From: Pyrobaculum neutrophilum V24Sta
Lineage (GTDB): Archaea; Thermoproteota; Thermoprotei; Thermoproteales; Thermoproteaceae
Direction of reading: 5' to 3'
DNA: 64,000 nucleotides
Assembly (NCBI RefSeq): GCF_000019805.1
Contig: NC_010525.1
Span: forward strand, 558,001-622,000
Shown here: positions 2,029 to 2,257 of the stretch, piece after piece
Layout of the letters: the number at the start of each line of letters is the position of its first letter
How positions within the stretch are numbered: position 1 is the stretch's first letter
Notes under the pieces: model-generated
Database searches by the model: none
Told to the model about the DNA's origin: nothing
The model's input: the letters and a program-made list of their open reading frames with translations, nothing else
Translations under genes and position numbers: made by a program

Positions 2029-2147
2029 TGGTGCCCCGGCCGGGATTTGAACCCGGGTCACGGGCTCGAGAGGCCCGCATCCTTGTCCGGGGTGGAGGCC
2101 ACCCGACCGGGCTAGACTACCGGGTGGGGTAGCCGGCTGGCTACGGC
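2029..2147 (-). tRNA. tRNA-Glu (CUC) with two non-canonical introns
   Basis: The anticodon stem CGGGC/GCCCG encloses loop CTCTCGA, giving anticodon CTC. T-arm CCGGG-TTCAAAT-CCCGG and an encoded CCA (2029-2031) are clear. Read directly, the 5' acceptor strand does not pair. Removing 21 nt (2124-2144) after nucleotide 3 gives GCCCCGG, which pairs perfectly with CCGGGGC. A second 20-nt intron (2085-2104) sits in the D-loop. Both have bulge-helix-bulge geometry: GGGG/CCCC with bulges CCG and ACC for the first, and CCGG/CCGG with bulges TCG and ACA for the second. The mature tRNA is 75 nt plus CCA. Confidence 0.93.
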
Positions 2148-2257
2148 CCCCGGGTCGCCAGGGCGTGCCTACGTAGTGGCTAGTTTATAAGCTTTTCTTG
2201 CTGTATCTTTTGCATCTTGGGCTAAAGATTTTTTAACTCCATGGCAATATCTGTTTT

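Follow-up and report, generated by a model that had tools for sequence, protein, structure and literature searches.

A minus-strand tRNA-Glu(CUC) gene, interrupted twice, lies at positions 2147-2029 of the window, i.e., the whole stretch of 64,000 nt of Pyrobaculum neutrophilum V24Sta DNA that was analysed (genome of 1,769,823 bases). The features of the locus, in the direction of the gene, are as follows.

2184..2191, minus strand: TATA-box core CTTATAAA, from the sequence; its centre and the acceptor copy downstream are ~23 nt apart, as is usual for related genes
2158..2164, minus strand: GCCCTGG, a copy of the 5′ acceptor strand within the leader, where the transcript is predicted to begin
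2148..2157, minus strand: remainder of the leader; of the four bases in the central helix of the intron 1 bulge-helix-bulge (BHB), three are at 2150-2148, and leader positions covary with the intron
2145..2147, minus strand: exon 1, GCC, tRNA positions 1-3
2124..2144, minus strand: intron 1, 21 nt, position 3/4 of the acceptor stem, assigned from the BHB and its covariation
2105..2123, minus strand: exon 2, from position 4 to the D-loop, assigned from ARAGORN on the spliced form and from relatives' sequences
2085..2104, minus strand: intron 2, 20 nt, D-loop; the spliced sequence matches intronless relatives exactly
2032..2084, minus strand: exon 3, to the discriminator A, from the sequence and from ARAGORN on the spliced form
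2039-2033, minus strand: 3′ acceptor strand CCGGGGC, within exon 3, from the sequence
2029..2031, minus strand: encoded CCA, from the sequence

Elsewhere in the window, an Rfam asR3 (Pyrobaculum asRNA3) match of 70.6 bits is found at 519-575 on the plus strand.

Deletion of 2144-2124 and 2104-2085 gives the spliced form GCCCCGGTAGTCTAGCCCGGTCAAGGATGCGGGCCTCTCGAGCCCGTGACCCGGGTTCAAATCCCGGCCGGGGCACCA, of 78 nt with the encoded CCA and 75 nt without it. ARAGORN reads this form as a complete tRNA-Glu(ctc) whose acceptor stem is paired throughout, and calls no tRNA in the unspliced gene or in the whole pre-tRNA; the Rfam tRNA cut-off is reached by the 3′ part of the unspliced gene alone, with 33.9 bits. 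Removal of the introns thus restores an intact tRNA, by ARAGORN and by the match to intronless relatives, and the sequence and the spliced tRNA agree with the intron coordinates of the original prediction. The gene is neither split nor permuted, as its exons are in order, on one strand and within 119 nt. A second intact tRNA-Glu(CUC) gene, which the original prediction had counted as evidence against itself, was sought in the genome and not found. The sole other tRNA-Glu found there is a UUC gene at ~70,201-70,340, which also has two introns. The locus is best explained as encoding a functional pre-tRNA-Glu(CUC).

In the tRNA-Glu(UUC) region (genome positions 70,100-70,450), both introns are identical in sequence to the two of Glu(CUC) and the leader differs, which suggests gene conversion between the two genes.

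The D-loop intron has the motif first proposed for it, a CCGG/CCGG helix whose bulges are TC^G and AC^A. One step farther out, C2111 would have to pair with A2083, and the motif is therefore of the relaxed type. Comparison with intronless relatives confirms the intron, their exon sequence being 100% identical across the junction.

Intron 1 is inserted between tRNA nucleotides 3 and 4, i.e., at position 3/4. Its BHB is as originally drawn: GGGG (2150-2147) pairs with CCCC (2129-2126) in a 4-bp central helix, with 3-nt bulges CC^G and AC^C on opposite strands and a predicted cut after the second base of each bulge. The intron is also confirmed by comparison with relatives whose match begins only at position 4, and with Vulcanisaeta-type genes, in which GCCCCGG is uninterrupted. 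Just three tRNA nucleotides precede the intron, and the central helix must therefore draw most of its 5′ strand from the leader.

The motif was compared in 27 distinct related sequences. The central helix is paired in 100% of cells, a figure that is partly built in, as the search behind the alignment required central-helix pairing; two-sided changes were not built in. The third pair takes its 5′ base from the leader and occurs as A-U (15), G-C (8), C-G (2) and G-U (2); a two-sided change is also present at the first pair. Covariation over the whole motif is 0.415, as against 0.177 for shuffled and at most 0.107 for slid alignments. The inner helix is 89% paired, shows two-sided changes and covaries. 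The outer CCG/CGG helix, which the original prediction had included in the motif, is conserved in 68% of cells with zero two-sided changes; without covariation, the outer pairs are therefore not a conserved part of the motif. The 5′ strand of the central helix varies among GGGG, GGAG, GGCG, CGCG and AGCG while exon 1 remains GCC in 37/37 genes. The need for the leader in building the 3/4 BHB, the central claim of the original prediction, is well supported by this comparison: three of the four central-helix pairs use leader bases, and the leader covaries with the intron.

The original account of the leader identified these BHB bases and missed its less expected part, a copy of the 5′ acceptor strand farther upstream. 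The copy, GCCCYGG, is present upstream in 37/37 distinct genes with a 3/4 intron (34 plus L287, L289 and L327), as GCCCCGG (30), GCCCTGG (4), GCTCCGG (1) and GCCCCGC (2). It is present in none (0/113) of the sampled comparison genes with an uninterrupted acceptor, a set that is not limited to Glu and Asp and in which 53 genes carry the CCGGGGC strand. The copy has a pairwise identity of 94%, vs 29% and 32% for the 7-nt stretches just upstream and just downstream. When genes are shuffled one by one, the signal for the copy is weak (median p ~0.08) since the leaders are GC-rich, and the case for it rests on recurrence and placement.

As to placement, nearly all 3/4-intron genes have the copy about 23-27 nt downstream of the TATA box, the spacing at which mature tRNA 5′ ends occur in this genome, while its distance to exon 1 ranges from 17 to 38 nt. 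The copy therefore probably forms the first seven bases of the transcript; the predicted start here is 17 nt upstream of exon 1, vs mature nucleotide 1 for a leaderless tRNA. The copy at 2164-2158 can pair 7/7 with the 3′ strand at 2039-2033, with one U-G pair. This capacity is 7/7 for 35 genes and 6/7 for the other two; all C-to-U (C-to-T) changes in the copy keep the pairing with the 3′ strand. All 3/4-intron cases found share the acceptor GCCCCGG and so offer no variation for covariation between copy and acceptor.

The fold predicted before splicing joins the copy to the 3′ strand, at 37 °C in 33/34 genes and at 85 °C in 34/34. In the fold predicted after splicing, the copy still beats the rebuilt strand in most genes, and the exchange of strands is therefore not explained by secondary-structure energies alone. 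A role of the copy in enabling BHB formation is not supported, as its removal in silico leaves BHB pairing undiminished; the sole effect of the removal is that the 3′ strand becomes unpaired or mispaired.

The following order of maturation is proposed. Transcription would start at or beside GCCCTGG (2164-2158), and in the primary transcript the copy would act as a placeholder by pairing with the 3′ acceptor strand, a role suggested by its conservation and pairing capacity. The leader G-run would pair with the intron C-run, giving a BHB made of leader, exon 1 and intron. EndA would cut at 2145/2144 and 2124/2123, with ligation of the exons, and the joined GCC and CCGG, the real acceptor strand, would displace the copy. 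RNase P would then cut at 2148/2147 and remove the 17-nt leader. The D-loop intron would be excised through its own relaxed BHB. In Thermoproteaceae, the linker G-run freed by excision of the intron can pair with the copy, and this hairpin may release the 3′ strand. Genes for an EndA-family subunit and for a minimal type T RNase P RNA are present in the genome.

The comparisons show the introns, the use of the leader, the covariation, and how the copy is conserved and placed; from these we infer the transcription start, the pairing in vivo, the strand exchange and the order of the steps. Splicing before RNase P cleavage, as originally proposed, would follow from leader-dependence and is strengthened by the probable start at the acceptor-strand copy, which could keep the 3′ strand occupied up to splicing. 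As a whole, the account with a placeholder copy, EndA splicing, strand exchange and then RNase P is the best explanation of the sequence comparisons, and we consider it about as apt to be right as wrong. The specific proposal that, as long as the intron is in place, the copy makes the acceptor stem whole and masks the RNase P site, with the order EndA, strand exchange, RNase P, is more tentative, at somewhat below an even chance.

A less probable but serious alternative retains the BHB and its leader-dependence and gives the copy another role: it may form a leader hairpin with the freed G-run after splicing, helping RNase P or stability, or the constraint on it may come from the start of transcription or from Glu and Asp genes recombining with each other. 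A copy-linker helix of 4-6 bp is possible in almost all Thermoproteaceae genes, but L094, L110 and L327 have a linker helix of just 3 bp and yet a full copy. Leader-plus-intron units look common to different genes and genera, and an identical leader stretch is found in the Glu(UUC) gene of this genome, in the Asp and Glu(UUC) genes of G004 and in a gene of G016; however, the copy is invariant in seven f4/f7 genes despite their diverged flanks. It is improbable that the upstream GCCCYGG is itself the true exon 1 of a leaderless tRNA, with one longer intron that ends before the downstream CCGG or U8. The copy does sit where the mature 5′ ends of leaderless tRNAs sit, and direct repeats leave the exon border ambiguous, but a matching BHB is lacking: the sole BHB-like alternative found is an all-wobble helix in L094 (borders after GCC were searched, and other borders were inspected by eye in two genes). 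In addition, the inner GCC is invariant and its BHB covaries, and C-to-U and G7-to-C changes are tolerated in the copy but not in exon 1. A chance hairpin as the source of the acceptor stretch, or a pseudogene, is very improbable, since the low unspliced Rfam score is outweighed by recurrence of the structure with covariation in related genomes and by the status of the gene as the sole tRNA-Glu(CUC) found in its genome.

In a survey of 81 genomes from the class, such 3/4 introns occur in most Pyrobaculum, with P. oguniense TE7 and Pyrobaculum sp. WP30 among the carriers, as well as in several members of the family's third genus and in four f4/f7 genomes; families f2 and f3, which belong to the same order, yielded none. 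Their presence in f4/f7 but not in f2 points to two separate gains or to one old gain followed by loss. In G010 (2,009,313 bases), the Glu and Asp acceptors are uninterrupted. As to 3/4 introns beyond Glu and Asp tRNAs, the strong covariance-model matches in the 81 genomes are all Glu, Asp or a Glu remnant, save L343 (G001), which is outside a tRNA context; weaker matches are also outside such a context and were set aside. A pattern search of 398 genomes of the phylum gave the extra matches L350, L353 and L354, which are not tRNAs, and L351, which was left out of the inspected set.

Several loci display other states of these genes. The tRNA-Asp(GUC) gene at genome positions 1,131,600-1,131,950 has no 3/4 intron and keeps a long leader, which starts with GCCGCGG, one base off the acceptor copy, and has a GCCGCG/CGCGGC hairpin. 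The intron looks to have been lost precisely, with the leader left behind, and the Glu(CUC) gene of G006 (L075) looks similar. In G004 (1,202,110-1,202,450), only the 5′ part of a tRNA-Glu gene is found, with a decayed BHB that has CCCA for CCCC; with the same upstream region, it looks like the matching locus. In the tRNA-Glu(UUC) of G007 (L112), the 3/4 intron is accompanied by an additional T-loop insertion, which resembles an intron as well.

The gene shows leader bases that are under selection for splicing, and a fixed order of splicing and 5′ processing is suggested. If the placeholder role is true, the copy would be a built-in processing checkpoint; as a conserved element, it is a simple sequence feature open to testing. 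Most parseable tRNA genes in this genome look leaderless, and the few genes with real leaders, including those with 3/4 introns, may therefore help explain the retention of a minimal RNase P in these archaea.

Introns at position 3/4 in Thermoproteales have already been published (Sugahara 2008, cited in PMC4090602), and the 3/4 intron itself is therefore not new; its reliance on flanking sequence is likewise known, or at least implied. For the acceptor-strand copy, no earlier description was found in the literature searched, a set that the primary 2008/2010 papers lie outside. tRNAscan-SE 2.0 adds 60-nt flanks to candidates to find introns near the 5′ end (PMC8450103).

The present gene is similar to the published Thermoproteales cases in intron position, order of archaea and BHB-type splice sites, but differs in the leader copy of the acceptor strand, of which no mention was found in the literature searched. 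Multi-intron tRNAs are common in Thermoproteales (PMC3218864). With the multiple-intron pre-tRNAs of Pyrobaculum (PMC3218864, PMC8450103) the gene shares two introns per tRNA and BHB-type splice sites; unlike those, its acceptor intron needs the leader and is accompanied by the acceptor-strand copy. As in the split tRNAs of Nanoarchaeum and Caldivirga and the permuted tRNAs of Thermofilum (PMC3218864), the BHB is built in part from leader bases outside the tRNA, but here the tRNA would come from one transcript, with its parts in normal order and spliced in cis.
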